Of a stretch of DNA of 64,000 bases, positions 7,417 to 58,658 are shown piece by piece (within the stretch, counting starts at the first letter, position 1; every line of letters starts with the position of its first letter). The position numbers and the translations under genes were made by a program. The notes under the pieces are model-generated. The model was not told the origin of the DNA and ran no database searches. It saw nothing but the letters and a program-made list of their open reading frames with translations. The DNA is from Planctomycetaceae bacterium (GTDB taxonomy: Bacteria; Planctomycetota; Phycisphaerae; Sedimentisphaerales; UBA12454): NCBI GenBank assembly GCA_021371795.1, contig JAJFVK010000019.1, forward strand, positions 62,001-126,000. The letters run 5' to 3'.

Positions 7417-8328
7417 TTAAAAAAGTTCATTCTGTTTTACAGTAGTTAATTTGTATTCTACTGGTTGGAATTTCCATTTACCATTTTCCAAACAACATTC
7501 ACTCATGCAAAATGCATTTTTCCATCGGCTATTTTGCATCCGTGCGTATCCCTCTCGATACCGTTTTATTAAGGCTTTTACGGGTTCTGCAACTATTTTG
7601 TGATAATTTTTATCCGTTGTCGTAAAACCATGTGCCACTCGAAACGAACCAATTAGTAAATCTGTTAATTGTAGGAATTGACAGTCATCATAAGACTGAC
7701 AATCTTTTGTTGTATGGTTGCCTGTTTTGTCATCTATCGAATAAAGACCGCCTTGTATTGAAAAATAATCTCTTAATCCTGACAGACGATCAACAATTCT
7801 CTCGTGGTCAAGATTTCTTCGCTGATGCTCACAACCGTCAAAATGCATCTTTGTTATTTCAATAGTATTTTCGTCGTTACCTAAAAAGTGAACTCCTCCT
7901 TTTAGTCCCATTCTAAATGTAGTTTCAACCTTTCCACCATAATCTAACGCATTAGACATGTTTTTAAAACTATCACGTTCTCTAAATACTATAAACTTGG
8001 CACCTATAGGTTGTTTTACGATATCTTCATAATTGCCATCCCATACGATTTTACCTTTTTGTTGTCTCCCCAGTCTGATTGTATATTTATCTTTACCAAA
8101 TTTGGTCATCATCGCACCAACTGCGAATAAAACCCATAATTCTGCACAAACAAAAGCCTTATCACGATATTTAATTTCTTTGATTCCAATCGGTTTCCTA
8201 TGATTTGTATTAGTGCGTATTTCTTCTAAATATTTAAGGAAAAGTGATTTAGTGGCCTCAGGGACCAAAAGCATTCCATGCCAATATCCATCTACTTTTG
8301 ATTCGTCATGATATAAATGGTATTTCAT
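7417..8328 (-). CDS. DUF3800-like protein (predicted RNase H-fold)
   Basis: 303 residues. The N-terminus (KYHLYHDESKVDGYWHGMLLV) and a late motif CQFLQLTDLLIGS match the two ends of DUF3800, whose YxDES and Q-x-x-D-x-x-x-G motifs place acidic residues as in RNase H-like nucleases. Other acidic candidates are HFDGCEH and SIDDKTG. DUF3800 proteins often occur in defence islands and beside toxins, but their activity is largely uncharacterised. It lies 12 bases after the membrane protein gene on the same strand, so the two probably form an operon. The pair is AT-rich and sits beside the RAYT array, which suggests acquisition. Confidence 0.6.
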   Translation of the reverse strand: MKYHLYHDESKVDGYWHGMLLVPEATKSLFLKYLEEIRTNTNHRKPIGIKEIKYRDKAFVCAELWVLFAVGAMMTKFGKDKYTIRLGRQQKGKIVWDGNYEDIVKQPIGAKFIVFRERDSFKNMSNALDYGGKVETTFRMGLKGGVHFLGNDENTIEITKMHFDGCEHQRRNLDHERIVDRLSGLRDYFSIQGGLYSIDDKTGNHTTKDCQSYDDCQFLQLTDLLIGSFRVAHGFTTTDKNYHKIVAEPVKALIKRYREGYARMQNSRWKNAFCMSECCLENGKWKFQPVEYKLTTVKQNELF

Positions 8329-23764: not shown

Positions 23765-24068
23765 ACAACTGAAATTGTTTGCTTTTAATAAAAAGTACCT
23801 ATTATAATTACTTTTTGTGCAAAGACTTACCGATTTTAAAGTTTATTTAGACATTTTCATCGAAAAATAACTTGAATTGTTCTTTTTGTTCGATAGAATG
23901 GTTGAAAGGTTGCAGATGCAGTTTGGGAGTTAGGAATGAGAAAATCAGTAGTCTTCGGACGGTACGGTCTGGAGCAAATCTTCTTAATTTCCCATTGAAT
24001 TTCGACAAAACAATGTTTTCTATGTTGAAAAATTGGTAATTAAACAAATTTTTTTGGGAGACGAGAAA

Positions 24069-24776
24069 ATGAAAACGGGAAATTTAACAGTCTTAATTTT
24101 GGCAGTTGTATTATTTATTTCTTATCCTCTTGGGGCCGCAATCAGCGATAATTTCGATAATGGCGTTCTCGATTCTGCTTGGAATGTTGGATTTGCAAAT
24201 GCATCAGGTTGGACTTATAATGAAACAGGTGGTAAATTAAATGTTACTGCTGTTGATTTAATCAATGTCAATTATGATGGAGATGCATATATTAAACAGG
24301 CATTTTCGGCACCAGATGATTTTGAAGTTAAATGCGGAATCGCATGGACTTCAAATGCAGGGCTTTCAACAAGTCAAGCAATATCTGTCAGGCTTTATAG
24401 TGGTGCTACCATTGTAACGCAGGGAGGATATCTCGATTGGAGATCAAATGCTAACGGCCAAAGGCATGCAAGAATAATGGAACCATCGTATGTATATGAT
24501 TCAGGAGTAAATACAGTTGCTTCTTCCGGCAGTTCTCAAATAACTTTGAAAAGAACTGATGATGTAATTAGTGTTCTTTGGAATGATCAAGTGATGCTGA
24601 CAGCCAGCAACGATTTAGCTATCGATACGCTTTTGATATGCTTTTCAAGAGTAGATGAAGGTATTCCTCAATATTTCGGGGATTTATCAATAGATTATGT
24701 TACAGCTGTTCCTGAACCTGCAACAATGCTTTTTTTAGGTGTAGGCATAGCTTTAGCAAGAAGAATGAAAAAATAA
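24069..24776 (+). CDS. PEP-CTERM sorting domain protein
   Basis: 235 residues from the ATG preceded by GGGAGACGAGAAA. Signal peptide MKTGNLTVLILAVVLFISYP is followed by a concanavalin-like beta-sandwich pattern (FDNGVLDSAWNVG, YIKQAFSAPDDFEVKCGI, VISVLWNDQVML, LLICFSR). The C-terminal anchor is VPEPATMLFLGVGIALARR-MKK. It stands isolated between convergent glycan genes. About 85 bases upstream is TTAATTTCCCATTGAAT, close to a block upstream of the other PEP-CTERM gene. The 300-base gap before it holds nothing else I can support. Confidence 0.82.
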   Translation: MKTGNLTVLILAVVLFISYPLGAAISDNFDNGVLDSAWNVGFANASGWTYNETGGKLNVTAVDLINVNYDGDAYIKQAFSAPDDFEVKCGIAWTSNAGLSTSQAISVRLYSGATIVTQGGYLDWRSNANGQRHARIMEPSYVYDSGVNTVASSGSSQITLKRTDDVISVLWNDQVMLTASNDLAIDTLLICFSRVDEGIPQYFGDLSIDYVTAVPEPATMLFLGVGIALARRMKK

Positions 24777-26360: not shown

Positions 26361-28019
26361 TTATTTTTTTTCAGTTAGATTAAAAATAATATACGGATAC
26401 ATTCCAGCTTTTAGGAATTTTCCGGATTTTGTTCTTTCGCCGTTAACGCCGTCGATAACTTCATACGGATAATCCTGCGAAAGCCTTGTTATTAAAGGTT
26501 TTAATTCGCCTACGGCGGGGCACAGATAATATGGATACCGACCCGTAACGGCATATTGCCTGACTTCTTCATAAGATTGAGCGGGCGTAATTTCCCTGTC
26601 GAGATACCAGGCGATTTCCGGCCTGATGAAGCCGCCTTTCGATTCGTTCTGATTTACAATAAAATCCTCAAAACTTAAAAGCGCTTTGTCCGGCGGAATT
26701 TGCATATTAAGTTTTTTGAAAAGTTCAATTTTTTGCGGCGCCTGCCAGCGGATATCATAATAATATTTTGTTCCGAAAAAGCAGGAAACCAATAATACGC
26801 CGAGCAGAATTGCCTGAACTGTAAGAGCGGCATATTTATTCGCAAGCAGCCGCAGAAACCAGCCGACGCTCAAAATCGCAAGGGCAATAGTGATGGCAAG
26901 AAACGGTGTCAAAGGCGTTTCCCACGTCTGATGCTGCCAGAGACAGCCTTTAAGAATGAAAAGCTGGAAGAATGGAATCAGGAAGAACAAGCCTAAACAT
27001 GGATATTTTAATTCTTTTTTGCCTGCTGAATTCTCTTTCAGCGATAAGATAAAAAGCGGACCAAATATGAAATAAACAATCGCGATGATAAGGCCTGGGA
27101 TGGTGAAGTTCGTCGAAGCGTGCTCCCACATCTTTGCGAACCACTTGCCCCAATCGAATCCCTGCTGCATTACTCCTTCCATTTCGCCTTTAGCGGCGCG
27201 CCATTTATAAAGCGCGGAAATTTTGCTAATGTCCCAGTTGTAACCAGCGGCCATAACGGTGAAATTCAGGCATACGCTTAATAGCGGCGCGGCGGCGAGT
27301 ATTATCACTAAAGGCCAATACGGCATCTTCTTTTTAAACATACAGCCGAGTACGTAATGGACGCCGATGCCCATCGCGAAGAAAAATCCAACCCAACTGA
27401 ACTGCACGCCGAGGAAAAGCGTTATCGCCAAAATTACATAATGTATTTTTCGTATCTTTCGCGGCGTATGGCCTGATACTATCAAATACATCCACATCGA
27501 AAGATACCCCATCAGCACAGGCCAGCCGCCCATACTGAAATAGCCGGTGAGCGGAAACGCCACATAAATAAATCCGGATAACAATGCGAGCGCACTGTTT
27601 GAAATATCCTTTATCATTAAAATGAAAACCAGCAGGGCAGGCAATGCTATAATTATATCCTCAACTTTCAAGCCCCATTCGTTTATGCCAAGAATTTTCA
27701 TGAAACCTGCCGCGACCAATACGTTCAATTGAGGATGATCCCAATAACGGTCTGGATTTTTGGTCGGCGGCATACCAACAGCCCATGTCGAACAAAATTT
27801 AGTGTATGCCAAACCATATTTTACGTGCGAACGTGCCGCCCATGCGCCGCTGGCCTGCGCCCAACTGTGCATTCCATACAAAGGCCTGGTAATATCGTGC
27901 AGGACAATCGCTGAAAATAATGCGAGAATTAAAACTGTGAAAAACCAGAACTTTTTTTTGTTTTCCGGTTTTATTGTTTCCTGTTTAATATTTTTTTGAG
28001 GAATATCTTTTTTGCCCAT
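26361..28019 (-). CDS. Polytopic membrane glycosyltransferase, GT39/ArnT-like
   Basis: 552 residues with roughly a dozen hydrophobic helices. The first periplasmic loop reads HDITRPLYGMHSWAQASGAW and is followed by DHPQLNVLVAAGFMKILG, the loop region that carries catalytic acidic residues in GT39/GT83 enzymes using polyprenyl-phosphate sugars. A ~110-residue soluble C-terminus (KALLSFEDFIVNQNES, RPEIAWYLDREITPAQSYEE) probably lies outside the membrane. It is the first gene of the minus-strand trio with FkbM and GT2. Confidence 0.72.
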   Translation of the reverse strand: MGKKDIPQKNIKQETIKPENKKKFWFFTVLILALFSAIVLHDITRPLYGMHSWAQASGAWAARSHVKYGLAYTKFCSTWAVGMPPTKNPDRYWDHPQLNVLVAAGFMKILGINEWGLKVEDIIIALPALLVFILMIKDISNSALALLSGFIYVAFPLTGYFSMGGWPVLMGYLSMWMYLIVSGHTPRKIRKIHYVILAITLFLGVQFSWVGFFFAMGIGVHYVLGCMFKKKMPYWPLVIILAAAPLLSVCLNFTVMAAGYNWDISKISALYKWRAAKGEMEGVMQQGFDWGKWFAKMWEHASTNFTIPGLIIAIVYFIFGPLFILSLKENSAGKKELKYPCLGLFFLIPFFQLFILKGCLWQHQTWETPLTPFLAITIALAILSVGWFLRLLANKYAALTVQAILLGVLLVSCFFGTKYYYDIRWQAPQKIELFKKLNMQIPPDKALLSFEDFIVNQNESKGGFIRPEIAWYLDREITPAQSYEEVRQYAVTGRYPYYLCPAVGELKPLITRLSQDYPYEVIDGVNGERTKSGKFLKAGMYPYIIFNLTEKK

Positions 28020-47961: not shown

Positions 47962-48192
47962 TATTACGGACAAATTATGTATCGGATCGGTATAAATAGA
48001 GTCTGCTCCCTCTGTTATACTGTCCGGAGAGGGGATTTTATGGGGTAGGTAAAGTGCTGTCAAGCAGATATTTTAATGGTTTTTAAAAAATACCCCCTCG
48101 AATTATTGTTAACCCAAGGGGGAGGCTCCGAAGTAAGCGATCAAGTTATTAGCGAAAAATATTCAACGTCCTTTACGGAAAAGACAAAAAAA

Positions 48193-48297
48193 TCAAGGCA
48201 ACCTCTAAAAAAAGCCATTGCAAGGAGTTTTGTGCGGTTTTGCTATGCAAGACAAAGGGGCAATCTCAAGTTTTCATATTTTTAGAGGTTGCCTTGA
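48193..48297. repeat. MITE-like element with 19-bp perfect terminal inverted repeats
   Basis: TCAAGGCAACCTCTAAAAA and its exact reverse complement bound a 67-base interior that has no credible frame and some internal complementarity (TTTTGTGC near GCAAGACAAA). I see no target duplication. It lies in the 580-base gap between gap and the SIR2 gene. It could be a non-autonomous IS remnant or a very long terminator stem. The rest of the gap holds only a weak CCCCCT/AGGGGG hairpin near 48090-48122. Confidence 0.5.
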
Positions 48298-48488
48298 CTT
48301 TCGTACCTAATACAATATCGTCGTTTTAAACCAACCTACAATATAAGGAAAACCCTTGTTTTGATCTTCGTTTTCTCTCTAAAATACTAATTTGGTATTA
48401 GTACTTGTGTATCGAACGGTTGGTAAAGGAGACTGTGAAGGGGAAAAAGAACGTAATTTTGGCCACAGATATTCCTAAGTTGTCCATT

Positions 48489-51400
48489 CTAAGAGTTGAT
48501 TGAAATATCAGTAGCTACAGCCCCATGCATATTAAATGCTAACTTAAATTGCACGCGAGTTCCTACGGCCATATTCTTCCATGTTATCTCGTCCACATTA
48601 TCCTCATGGCAGTATATCCTATCGGAAATACCGTCTCTTGCGATAAAACAGTACGTTGATTCAATACGACATATTTCTCCTTGGTATATCGTTTCCAAAG
48701 GATATCGAGGCATATTTTTCAATTCAAACGATAATCTGACATATTTCAACTCCGCGAAAATATTTTTACTCTCTGGGTAATTACCATTTATAAACAACTG
48801 ACGAGCATATAACAACTGAGCATCATAATTTTTGTCTCCCGGAGAATAAGATCGCTTAAAATGATATTCTAAAATTTCACCAGATATATCCGGTGTCGTT
48901 AATAACGCTTTGCCATATGAATAATGAAGTTCTTTTTTACTGCTGTCTGCATCAAGTGCTTTTTTTAGTATCTCTATTGCTTTGCCATTATCGTTGTTTT
49001 CTTGATAACATCTTGCCAGCCTTGATGCTATGTAAACTTTTCGAGGATTCAACTCAAAAGACCGTTCTAACGCCTTAATAACCCTATCAGAATCAGATGT
49101 GAGTTTTGCTAAATCCGCTTCTAATGTCAATAAATAAGACTCGCCGGGGAAATTTTGTAAACCGTTCTCCAAATGTGTTTCAATGTTTTTTATGATTTCT
49201 CCTAACTCTTCGTCTGATACATGAGAAAGGTCAGATTTTAATTTTCTCTCCAACCTCATTAATTCGGATTTAATCAGAGTCGCGATACCATGAGAATCAA
49301 GAAAACGGGAGTTCTGTAAGCATATAGCCTCTGCATCGTCTAAACACTTATTGAATTCAAGTTCAGTTTTTGCTTGTTCTGCAATACGCAGTTTAAGCTC
49401 TGCTATAGAATGAATAACTGTGTAATTATTTGGATTTATTTCATATGCTTTGTCTATCAATTGTTTGGCTGTAACTAAACTGCCATTAGGTCTTTTCATC
49501 TCATAAATCGCCATCTGATGAAGCAGTTCTTGATTGTTAGGAGCAATTTTCTGAGCGATCTCATAAATCTGTTTGCCCATAGAATAATCACTAAAGTAAC
49601 TAAGAATTTCATTCGCTCGAATCAGATGGAAGAAAGCTTGTCTATCGGACTGGTATGAAATATTCATATGTTGTAAGTATTTAATGTATTCATGCAATTT
49701 GTCCTCAGCTTGATACAAAATATTTTCGAATATAATCTCAGCAATATGAGGGTGCCTGGCTGTATACTCATAATCCCTAATTACGGGATTCAACTTTGTA
49801 TTTACTATCTGTTCCAGTGGTGCAAAAAAACGTTTTTCAAAATCACTAAAACTTACTCCATATATTCGCGAAATTAGTCCCGCACGTACCGGAATATTTA
49901 ATCTATTCAAAACGCATATTGAAAGGTAGATTTTCTGAGCATCAAAAGGCTTAATCTTTTCATATTCATCTCGAATTATCTCAACAAAAGATTTGCCGAA
50001 AGTTGCTTCATGTAATGCAACTAATAATTGTCTTCCAGCTTGCTCAGTTAAAGCATCTTTACGTTTCTGAGGATTCAATCTCTCAAGTATTCCTAGTGCT
50101 TTATGTTTTTCTAAAAGTGATAATAAATTATCTATATCCTTATGTGATAAATATTTTAGTTCATATTCAGTAGTTACATATTCAGACAAAGTAGAACACG
50201 AAATATTCCACTCATTTGTTCGTGCGGTTGTTATTAATGTTACAAGGTTACCTGCTTCCCCTAAATTGTTAATCAAACCAATTAGTTCACGGACTCTGTC
50301 AGTAATTTCTTCAATGAACAAAAAAACTCTTTCCTCGGTTAAACTAATAATTTCTTTTAGGGCCGCTGAACTTACACACCCAAACTTTTTCATATACAAA
50401 CAGAGACATCCATAATCATGGGTGGCATCCCACGCGATTCGACGTAGTAATGTTTTTTTGCCTGCACCAGCATGAGCTCTAATTACTATAAATTGTAGCT
50501 TACTGAGTTTACCAGGTTTGTCTATGAAATGGTCTGTTAGTACTGAATCTACAAGTTTTCTTCGCACATCAAGGTTTTGAATAATTGGATACCAACCTAA
50601 ATCCATTCCTTTGTAAAAACTTCGTGGGTCTGTGATATTTTCAACTTTTACCGCCTTTACATATTCTATATCTGTCTTCAGAAATTGTTTTGCTGTCTCA
50701 CTAAGTACTATTTCTTTTTTGACGAATCTTTCAGAAATGGGAAATTCTTCAAGAGTGCTTTGTACTTTCAAGGCTCTAAAAGGAGAACTGATTTCCTTGT
50801 CTATAGTTGTCATAAACTCATTAAATGTACCTTGCATAACATCAATATTTTTCTTTGCCCACATGTTTTCTATAGGTTTTAGAACGTCAGGAGAAACAAT
50901 ATAATACTTTGGACGAGCTATGGAAATTTCCTTATTTATTTCAAGCAATATTTGCCTCAAATTGGGATCTTGGAAACTATAACCAACAAAGACTATTATA
51001 TGTTCGTAGCACCAGCATTTGAACATGTCAAAAACACGACATCTACCATCTCTGTATTGCACATATTGATCGGTGGTTAGAATTAAGGGCGCATCTGTAC
51101 TTGCCGTTCGAGTGATACAACCATGTAGTTTAAGGTATGGTATCGACTTTTGGTTACGTAGTTTATCATCAATACGATCAGTATTATCTATAAAAGGTAC
51201 GACTATTTGTAATGGATTTTGGTCGCTACTATAAGCTTTTTCTACAAGTCTATCAAAATTTGTTGTTGCAAGACCATACCAATTGAATTTGCTCAATAAA
51301 CGGTGTTGCTTTGTTGGCTCAAAAGGCTCGAATACTTTACGAATATATTCTTGTACTGTAACCAGATCCGATTCACTCATAGCTAATTCTGAAATCTGAT

Positions 51401-51581
51401 TAAGAGGATAATCCTTACAATCCAAGTTAAGAAATTCTTTTGCTAAAAGTTCTCCTAGTTTTTTACCAGAAGGTGCGGTTTCACCTTTATCGTTTTTGGC
51501 CTCCATCGAAGCACCCGCACCGAGCATTAGTACAACTTTACCTTCTTGTATATTAGATTTTAATTGCGGTGGTATTTCCAT
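48489..51581 (-). CDS. SIR2-STAND NTPase-TPR protein with C-terminal cold-shock-like OB domain; probable antiviral NADase
   Basis: 1030 residues from the ATG with GGAG 8 bases before it; a GTG three codons upstream overlaps that site. Residues 1-260 are a SIR2-like domain: LMLGAGASME, TTNFDRL (Asn108) and YLKLHGC (His153) hold NAD-binding and catalytic residues. A STAND-like ATPase follows with Walker A AHAGAGKKT (369-377) and Walker B VFLFIEE (419-425). From about 600 to 940 are TPR-like helical repeats. Residues ~963-1030 resemble a cold-shock/OB domain (GEICRIESTYCFIARDG, IYCHEDNVDE, VGTRVQFKLAF). SIR2-STAND proteins such as Avs5 deplete NAD on phage sensing. It stands alone, AT-rich, between gap and an amidohydrolase. 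Domain calls for SIR2 and ATPase firm, OB domain likely, function inferred. Confidence 0.8.
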   Translation of the reverse strand: MEIPPQLKSNIQEGKVVLMLGAGASMEAKNDKGETAPSGKKLGELLAKEFLNLDCKDYPLNQISELAMSESDLVTVQEYIRKVFEPFEPTKQHRLLSKFNWYGLATTNFDRLVEKAYSSDQNPLQIVVPFIDNTDRIDDKLRNQKSIPYLKLHGCITRTASTDAPLILTTDQYVQYRDGRCRVFDMFKCWCYEHIIVFVGYSFQDPNLRQILLEINKEISIARPKYYIVSPDVLKPIENMWAKKNIDVMQGTFNEFMTTIDKEISSPFRALKVQSTLEEFPISERFVKKEIVLSETAKQFLKTDIEYVKAVKVENITDPRSFYKGMDLGWYPIIQNLDVRRKLVDSVLTDHFIDKPGKLSKLQFIVIRAHAGAGKKTLLRRIAWDATHDYGCLCLYMKKFGCVSSAALKEIISLTEERVFLFIEEITDRVRELIGLINNLGEAGNLVTLITTARTNEWNISCSTLSEYVTTEYELKYLSHKDIDNLLSLLEKHKALGILERLNPQKRKDALTEQAGRQLLVALHEATFGKSFVEIIRDEYEKIKPFDAQKIYLSICVLNRLNIPVRAGLISRIYGVSFSDFEKRFFAPLEQIVNTKLNPVIRDYEYTARHPHIAEIIFENILYQAEDKLHEYIKYLQHMNISYQSDRQAFFHLIRANEILSYFSDYSMGKQIYEIAQKIAPNNQELLHQMAIYEMKRPNGSLVTAKQLIDKAYEINPNNYTVIHSIAELKLRIAEQAKTELEFNKCLDDAEAICLQNSRFLDSHGIATLIKSELMRLERKLKSDLSHVSDEELGEIIKNIETHLENGLQNFPGESYLLTLEADLAKLTSDSDRVIKALERSFELNPRKVYIASRLARCYQENNDNGKAIEILKKALDADSSKKELHYSYGKALLTTPDISGEILEYHFKRSYSPGDKNYDAQLLYARQLFINGNYPESKNIFAELKYVRLSFELKNMPRYPLETIYQGEICRIESTYCFIARDGISDRIYCHEDNVDEITWKNMAVGTRVQFKLAFNMHGAVATDISINS

Positions 51582-51952
51582 ATCAAACACTCCAAAATTT
51601 TACGCAGGTGGCAAGCGTTGGTTTGTTTTAGTTTTACCTACGAGTATTTTATTAATTAATCCCAACATTGCCTCATCAAAGACCTGATGAAATTATATCC
51701 CTGTTTTTAGCAAAAACAATAGGTTTTAGGTTTTTTGGTCGCAAAATTAGGCAGAAATCGTCCTGATGAGACGGTCGAAGCGGTGTCTTACGGGGTGACC
51801 GCCGTTCACAGAGACATTTAACCACAAATCGCCATCGCCCCGGCCGAGCAATACACTCTTGCAGAAAATACTTTTTTGCTATATGTTATATCTCTGCCTT
51901 GTCGAAGTTACTTAGGAACGAAGACGGGTGTTTTAAAAAAGGATTTTTTTCT

Positions 51953-57061: not shown

Positions 57062-57955
57062 TTATTTCCAGCAGGCTTCTGACGAATCAAAGCCGCAGTC
57101 AAGCCAGTTTGAAACAAGCAGGGCTAAGTCTAACATATTTACTTTGCAATCGTAGTTAATATCGCCAATAGGCCTATTTATGCAAATAGGTGGTATTGAT
57201 ATATTGCTGTGAAAAATTAAATATTTATAAGTGTCTGAAGCAAGTAAACATGCGGTTATTGTTGTGCCATTATTAAAGATTCCCGTCATTTCACCGAAAC
57301 CATTACATCCCCCCATATAAGAGATTTGAAAATCACTGCCATAGAAATTAATTTTGCCGCCGCCGGAACTTGCTAACTTTTGTATTGACCCGCCATATAC
57401 ATTTGGACTTGCGTTCCAATCCTGACTTGCATTCAACAATTCAATATTTCCTCCTAATATATTCATAGAGACTAAACTTGAGGCACTTAACTGATTTGTT
57501 ATTTGGCCACCAATAATATTTACACTTGCAGAATATCCAGAACTCAGCCGATATACAGCACCACCTGAAATATTCACATAGCTTGAATCCCATGCGTTAA
57601 TTTCATGTATATCAGCCTCTCCAGAAATATTCAGTTTGCTATCATTATAAGCATATATATAATATGGGTAAATTCTGCCCCCTGAAATGTTAATTGAACT
57701 TGAATGAAATGTTTTAACGTTTTGGGAAATAGTGCCACCTGAAATATTCACAGTACTTGCATTATAAGCGAATAGGCCTCCTGTTATTTGTCCTCCTGTC
57801 ATTTCAACAACTGTATTATTGCCAGTAACAACAACTACATCATAAATATTACCATCTTGTATGGTTACATTATGGTCAAAAGTTGTGGTTCCGGCCTGTA
57901 CTTGGCAAAGGAACGATACGAATACCGTTATCAATAGTACAATTTTATTTTTCAT
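57062..57955 (-). CDS. Secreted beta-solenoid protein with dockerin-like C-terminus (element cargo)
   Basis: 297 residues. A signal peptide (MKNKIVLLITVFVSFLCQVQA) is followed by about ten short repeats around NISGGxI (VNISGGTISQ, INISGGRIYP, VNISGGAVYR, VNIIGGQITN, MNILGGNIEL), likely a right-handed beta-solenoid. The last 34 residues, from GDINYDCKVNMLDLALLVSN, look like one calcium-binding dockerin repeat ending in WLDC, a pattern frequent in planctomycete exoproteins. It has no evident role in mobility. It is 25 bases downstream of the other cargo gene. Confidence 0.75.
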   Translation of the reverse strand: MKNKIVLLITVFVSFLCQVQAGTTTFDHNVTIQDGNIYDVVVVTGNNTVVEMTGGQITGGLFAYNASTVNISGGTISQNVKTFHSSSINISGGRIYPYYIYAYNDSKLNISGEADIHEINAWDSSYVNISGGAVYRLSSGYSASVNIIGGQITNQLSASSLVSMNILGGNIELLNASQDWNASPNVYGGSIQKLASSGGGKINFYGSDFQISYMGGCNGFGEMTGIFNNGTTITACLLASDTYKYLIFHSNISIPPICINRPIGDINYDCKVNMLDLALLVSNWLDCGFDSSEACWK

Positions 57956-57980: not shown

Positions 57981-58658
57981 TTATTTATTGTTACTATCGG
58001 AAATATTTTCTTTAGGCGAAGAATCTTTAGGATTAGCGGCTAAATAATCATTGCAAAATTCAGCTAATTTGTTTCTGACTTCTTCTCTGATTCCTTTTTC
58101 TAAATCTGTAGATTCATAAAACGCTATTGGCACACTTGGTTTTAATGAACTATATGGCCAAGTTATGGCAAATGTACGAATTTTCTGGTTTCTAACTAAA
58201 GAAACAAGCTGAGAAAAATTTATATCGGTGCGAACTTCATATGATTCCCAGGCCGGACTACCAGAACGACGAACACATACTTGAATATCGAGAGTACCAA
58301 AATCCATACCCAAATTGTGTTTTAGTGCAAAAGCGTTGGCCTCATTTTGGTCTGCTACGAACCCTTTTTCCTTATGATTTTCCATAGTTCCAGAAGTGGT
58401 TACAAAAAATGGTATTCCATTACGCCTTAAATATAATTCTATTTCAGTTTGTATGTCATTTAGTGGTAGATTACAGTTTACGTTTTCTGCTTTGAGAAAA
58501 CTTATTGATACAAGAATTCCTTTTAATCCTGTTAATGTAGATGTCCCAAAGAATTGGGTTTGCACTTTTTCTGGCTTACTTATGGCAAAAATATTCACAG
58601 TGAATAATAGAACATAGAAAATAGATATTGCGGTAAAACTAATTTTTTTCGTTTGCAT
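57981..58658 (-). CDS. Secreted protein of unknown function (element cargo)
   Basis: 225 residues with a signal peptide (FTAISIFYVLLFTVNIFA). The mature part has LTGLKGILVSISFLK, IQTEIELYLRRNGIPFF, and a C-terminal helix RNKLAEFCNDYLAANPKD with an acidic/Ser-rich end. The pattern of short beta strands with NGIPF resembles secreted proteins encoded singly in planctomycetes, but I assign no family. A Shine-Dalgarno TAGGAGAGA precedes the ATG. It is cotranscribed with the beta-solenoid gene behind a structured leader. Confidence 0.65.
   Translation of the reverse strand: MQTKKISFTAISIFYVLLFTVNIFAISKPEKVQTQFFGTSTLTGLKGILVSISFLKAENVNCNLPLNDIQTEIELYLRRNGIPFFVTTSGTMENHKEKGFVADQNEANAFALKHNLGMDFGTLDIQVCVRRSGSPAWESYEVRTDINFSQLVSLVRNQKIRTFAITWPYSSLKPSVPIAFYESTDLEKGIREEVRNKLAEFCNDYLAANPKDSSPKENISDSNNK

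Follow-up and report, generated by a model that had tools for sequence, protein, structure and literature searches.

A single long gene lies between gapA and an amidohydrolase gene in the window (the whole 64,000-nucleotide stretch of Planctomycetaceae DNA analyzed here), and it raises the question of what its product does and what the C-terminal end of that product is for. An earlier note had read the protein as a SIR2 effector, a STAND ATPase, TPR-like repeats, and a terminal OB domain resembling a cold-shock domain (CSD), in that order. The open reading frame at 48489-51581 on the minus strand is intact, with a GGAG at 51590-51593, 8 nt upstream of the ATG, and the proposed order is confirmed by Pfam (SIR2_2, nSTAND_NTPase5, and TPRs) and, for the last domain, by a CSD profile and structure. 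The features are as follows.

48489..51581, minus strand: SIR2-nSTAND5-TPR-CSD protein, 1,030 aa; ATG at 51581, stop at 48489-48491
50772..51581, minus strand: SIR2 NADase domain, residues 1-270; PF13289 (SIR2_2) 1e-22, VIA Z 26 to ThsA
51258-51260 (N108) and 51123-51125 (H153), minus strand: predicted SIR2 catalytic residues, 45/45 rows
50190..50624, minus strand: nSTAND_NTPase5 domain, residues 320-464; PF25199 1.4e-22
50451..50477, minus strand: Walker A, residues 369-377, AHAGAGKKT; K375 invariant
50307..50327, minus strand: Walker B, residues 419-425, VFLFIEE; E424 where 40/45 rows have D
48714..49751, minus strand: TPR-like alpha-solenoid, residues 611-956; Pfam TPRs, continuous helix pairs in the AlphaFold2 model
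48492..48692, minus strand: C-terminal cold-shock/OB domain, residues 964-1030; family profile, AlphaFold2 model, fold match
48079..51932, no strand: inserted low-G+C segment (approximate limits) between gapA and the amidohydrolase gene; no counterpart in two congeners

Within the protein, the SIR2_2 match spans residues 105-248 (about 1e-22) and the TPR matches fall around residues 832-880. nSTAND_NTPase5 scores over its own Pfam cut-off, whereas nSTAND3, at 15.7 bits, stays under its cut-off of 27.2. PADLOC matched ThsA-type SIR2 models, and Pfam gave no AlbA_2 match in the window protein, whose SIR2 domain starts at residue 1. The full-length AlphaFold2 model (pLDDT 86.6) ends in a five-strand OB fold, and its pTM of 0.55 places the domains relative to one another with low confidence.

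The gene had been described as a single-gene system inserted between housekeeping genes, and two congeners support this: no gene of the family lies between their gapA and amidohydrolase genes, and the interval measures 0.7-0.9 kb there versus 4.0 kb here. The G+C content of the inserted segment is about 30%-41%, compared with 43%-48% around it, and that of the gene 34%-36% in a neighborhood of ~45%; homologous genes likewise lie below their flanks in G+C in nearly all loci. Some relatives sit in prophages, beside a phage portal/terminase, integrase, or Mu-like gene, and restriction or restriction-modification genes occur near others. Full-length relatives are found on plasmids of Vibrio, Klebsiella, Methylobacterium, Psychrobacter, and Acinetobacter, and six IMG/VR contigs carry relatives; a tblastn search of INPHARED phages gave no match. 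The gene is thus a single, horizontally acquired, mobile one. Just downstream of it, at 48189-48301, is a 113-bp element with 23-nt inverted ends (96%), full or partial copies of which (72%-93% identity) occur elsewhere in the genome and in four congeners; it resembles a MITE or another kind of small palindromic repeat. An Rfam scan returned tRNA only. Elsewhere in the window, five open reading frames of 225-552 aa (26364-28019, 57065-57955, 57984-58658, 7420-8328, and 24033-24773), most of them in low-G+C stretches, had no Pfam or PADLOC match at 1e-5.

Relatives were collected by tblastn and profile scans, and all counts given here are lower bounds. Among the matches listed, genomes with full-length relatives belong to Pseudomonadota, Bacteroidota, Planctomycetota, Acidobacteriota, Chloroflexota, Armatimonadota, and Sumerlaeota, that is, to at least seven phyla. 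The search for homologs with the identical domain order, proposed in the earlier note, yielded 44 full-length relatives once two duplicate loci had been removed, all ending in a CSD/OB domain, and these were aligned with the window protein in 45 rows. In a tree of SIR2 plus STAND (66 rows, built by a quick method with SH-aLRT support only, and without EfAvs5 or SAMD9 sequences), the window protein groups with sequences from Planctomycetota, Acidobacteriota, Armatimonadota, and Sumerlaeota, a pattern of transfer between phyla. Replacement of the effector was looked for with a profile of residues 310-1030 in 396 genomes of the Mycolicibacter locus's phylum, 391 genomes of the Gemmobacter locus's order, and IMG/VR; none was seen in that sample, as every full C-terminal half was either joined to SIR2 or part of a truncated or frameshifted gene. 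A further group of ~810-aa SIR2-nSTAND5 proteins (loci L053-L091), also spread across phyla, has no CSD tail. These shorter proteins were first taken as possible Avs5, an idea dropped because, of those tested, some gave no match to the PADLOC Avs5 model and the others gave a weak one confined to SIR2.

All 45 rows share N108, D110, H153, G372, G374, and K375, in keeping with the earlier note, which had singled out Asn108 and His153 for mutation. The window copy itself has K at position 376 of Walker A, where all 44 relatives have S or T, and with K376 and E424 it could be weakened or contain a base error. Its departures from conserved columns are nevertheless normal in number (5/98, against a range of 1-15 among relatives). 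These two substitutions would also suit a gene that is not for defense at all, whether it encodes an NAD-dependent protein of stress or regulation or is a decayed copy; we consider this very improbable given that same departure count, the patchy distribution across phyla, the carriage on prophages and plasmids, the low G+C content, and the empty site in congeners. Copies that are frameshifted, split, or broken at the 5' end were seen on Klebsiella and Acinetobacter plasmids and on one IMG/VR contig (L007 5998-9018, L011 5977-9082, and L163 4782-7199), which suggests recurrent inactivation of the gene.

The closest solved comparison is Avs5, the plan that the earlier note had assigned to the protein. 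The top Foldseek match of the full model is the EfAvs5 helical structure (PDB 9jap; 6e-26), followed by human SAMD9 (PDB 9zjs; 7e-18 over 1,214 columns), the AVAST5 filament (9nc9), and DSR2. VIA aligned 764 residues to EfAvs5 at an overall rmsd of 21 Å, so it is the domains that agree rather than the overall pose, and the family profile finds both the SIR2 (i-Evalue 3e-14) and the STAND (4e-10) of EfAvs5. Like Avs5, this is a single gene encoding an N-terminal SIR2 NADase, a central STAND NTPase, and C-terminal helical repeats, and the catalytic Asn and His of the SIR2 effector are present in the window protein too. However, the PADLOC Avs5 profile PDLC02170 gave no match to the window protein at E up to 1, and the NTPase is nSTAND5 rather than the nSTAND3 reported for PaAvs5. 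The protein also exceeds the solved Avs5 chains in length by ~160-260 residues, and it carries a terminal CSD, of which the Avs5 paper makes no mention (PMC12931631). The Avs5-type assignment therefore stands for plan and fold and fails for membership: the protein is Avs5-like, and the PADLOC model does not class it as Avs5.

PaAvs5 hydrolyzes NAD+ on infection and requires its Sir2, NTPase, and repeat domains (PMC12931631). Because of this activity and the fold and profile match to EfAvs5, a course from closed monomer through trigger binding and oligomerization to NAD+ loss can be proposed. The TPR solenoid and the CSD would keep the resting protein closed until, during infection, this C-terminal half engages a trigger. 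NTP binding at the STAND domain would then lead to oligomerization, probably as a filament of the kind seen in the EfAvs5 and AVAST5 structures, packing the N-terminal SIR2 domains into active NADases, and the resulting collapse of NAD+ would leave the infected cell unable to support the phage. The gene product is probably an anti-phage suicide enzyme of this kind, an NAD+ destroyer governed by an NLR-like switch. That it is, more fully, a single-protein NLR-like abortive-infection system, an NTP-gated oligomerizing NADase with a CSD likely contacting single-stranded nucleic acid, we think somewhat better than an even prospect. We infer NAD+ depletion, oligomerization, and defense by analogy with Avs5, ThsA, and DSR2, and, more weakly, nucleic-acid binding by the CSD and such binding as the trigger.

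The SIR2 domain can also be compared with that of ThsA of Thoeris (VIA Z 26, 252 residues, 2.5 Å), a system that likewise works by NAD+ depletion; ThsA, however, carries a SLOG domain, and a cyclic ADPR signal serves as its switch. DSR2 resembles the window protein in its SIR2 domain and works by the NAD+ depletion proposed for the window protein, but it is not known to be a STAND NTPase or to contain a CSD. The earlier note had called a CSD-like end after SIR2-STAND-TPR unusual, and here it must be corrected, as SAMD9-family proteins, those of bacteria among them, have already been reported to share a SIR2-STAND-TPR-OB core whose OB most resembles cold-shock proteins (PMC5445408). Human SAMD9 and SAMD9L share the identical order with the window protein. 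They differ in that the window protein has no AlbA_2/tRNase, SAM, death-fold, or kinase domain (AlbA_2 being lost in some family members; PMC5445408) and in that the effector of SAMD9/9L is a tRNA nuclease. SAMD9 further has a P-loop Gly (GGT/S) in place of the K375 that is invariant in the window's family (45/45), and its SIR2 is a variant, whereas the catalytic residues of the window protein are canonical. By sequence profile, the link to SAMD9 is weak, with a match at 0.008 in part of STAND only, no better than NLRP14. CoCoNuTs and other conflict systems have CSD or S1 OB folds fused to an NTPase, with predicted RNA binding (PMC11090510, PMC7159879). CoCoNuTs thus share with this protein a CSD-like OB fold and an NTPase in prokaryotic defense; they are McrBC-type GTPase and nuclease operons, however, without SIR2 or STAND. 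Literature searches on nSTAND5, and on SIR2-STAND with cold shock in a phage context, found no paper in the collection searched. What is already published, then, is the domain order with a cold-shock-like OB (PMC5445408); what the analysis adds is a widespread mobile clade that joins canonical SIR2 catalytic residues and a P-loop Lys with an RNP-bearing CSD and is set apart from both Avs5 and SAMD9 by its defining features.

Identification of the CSD draws on several signals. The window sequence alone matches Pfam CSD (PF00313) at residues 974-1027 with E 0.008, at 21.6 bits against a curated cut-off of 27, and NCBIfam CspD at 6e-4; taken singly, 31 of the 42 members of the window's clade match PF00313 (E up to 0.1). 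A profile of the family's last ~90 residues matches solved structures of the UNR CSD (2e-11), CspA (7e-10), CspE, and CspB. Structure prediction and a fold search of the C-terminus, suggested at the outset as a check, gave for the domain alone a five-strand OB fold (AlphaFold2, pLDDT 92.1) closest to the RNA-bound YB-1 CSD (Z 10.8, 1.7 Å over 70 residues) and close to CspA (Z 9.8), with CSDs filling the top of the list. The OB of SAMD9 is absent from the fold lists of the lone domain, which excludes nothing, these being dominated by cold-shock proteins. Chance is excluded because all 44 distinct full-length relatives aligned carry this C-terminal domain at the same position, and the tail is certainly a cold-shock fold.

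The aromatic residues of RNP1 and RNP2 are normally the surface on which nucleic acids stack. In the window's clade, F or Y is found at RNP1-like Y977 in 41/42 members, at RNP1-like F979 in 40/42, at RNP2-like Y990 in 41/42, and at F1016 in 42/42, so that the F-x-F-I of RNP1 and the first RNP2 aromatic are retained; mapped by eye, Y977, F979, and Y990 correspond to F15, F17, and F27 in CspB numbering. Other parts of the face are altered: the CSD Trp equivalent is mostly lost (972 is mostly K or S), as is the last RNP2 aromatic (R, E, or K at 993), and the RNP2 His equivalent is H in only 17/42; these positions correspond to Trp8, Phe30, and His29 in the same numbering. The net charge of the window CSD is -3, which counts against a nucleic-acid reading. 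Judging from these residues, nucleic-acid binding by the CSD is nevertheless likely, with an altered face.

The architecture itself does not require such binding, because the OB fold survives without RNP1 in relatives that branch more deeply. In the SIR2+STAND tree, all RNP1-bearing members fall on one side of a single branch (support 99), and the RNP1 aromatics are missing from the related OB tail found at loci L050, L051, L060, L062, L071, L100, L043, L045, and L052, the first six of which are SIR2-nSTAND5 proteins of ~1,060-1,110 aa and represent a sister variant. Since the fold can persist in these long relatives without its binding face, the CSD could bind no ligand and simply cap the solenoid as a structural element, but exactly the RNP1/RNP2 aromatics are retained in the window's clade while much of the remaining domain drifts, and we regard a cap as decidedly improbable. 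Under the preferred reading, the CSD would most likely touch single-stranded nucleic acid through those aromatics, and this contact would be the trigger, or part of it, or would bring the sensor to sites of transcription or replication.

Characterized Avs triggers are phage proteins, which counts against nucleic-acid sensing, and it is a possible, if minority, alternative that the same NADase-STAND defense recognizes a phage protein with its C-terminal half, the CSD being a protein-binding face or docking on a nucleic-acid-bound phage protein. PaAvs5, for instance, senses JADA, an early phage protein with predicted DNA binding (PMC12931631); CSDs can also take part in protein complexes, two of which, PlyGRCS-CspC and Unr-pAbp RRM3, came up in the fold search, and the canonical binding face is incomplete here. 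However, this leaves unexplained why 40-41 of the 42 members keep F or Y at RNP1/RNP2 when they are only 27%-55% identical to the window protein. We consider it improbable that the CSD is instead a device for autoinhibition or self-tolerance, holding host RNA at rest until infection-driven loss of RNA or competition for it frees the switch. C-terminal halves of STAND proteins do autoinhibit, disease-causing gain-of-function mutations of SAMD9/9L fall in the NTPase and C-terminal half (PMC13245274), and host RNA would be a universal ligand across at least seven phyla, but the model places the domains relative to one another with low confidence (pTM 0.55).

The strongest form of the nucleic-acid reading, in which a widespread prokaryotic NLR-like NADase clade senses phage RNA or ssDNA directly through its C-terminal CSD, is offered tentatively, as a rather unlikely proposal when taken whole. 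If true, it would mean that a bacterial STAND receptor senses nucleic acid and that the SAMD9 core has a live counterpart in prokaryotes, and it would indicate a role for the OB end in SAMD9/SAMD9L. A clade spanning at least seven phyla with a cold-shock face at its sensor end offers a direct test of whether bacterial NLRs sense nucleic acid, and, being catalytically intact by its residues, a bacterial model for the SIR2-STAND-TPR-OB core common to human SAMD9/SAMD9L. Separately, the C-terminal part of a ribosome hibernation promoting factor (PDB 9t0z chain 9) matches the CSD profile (E 3e-4) and is possibly an HPF-CSD-like fusion.
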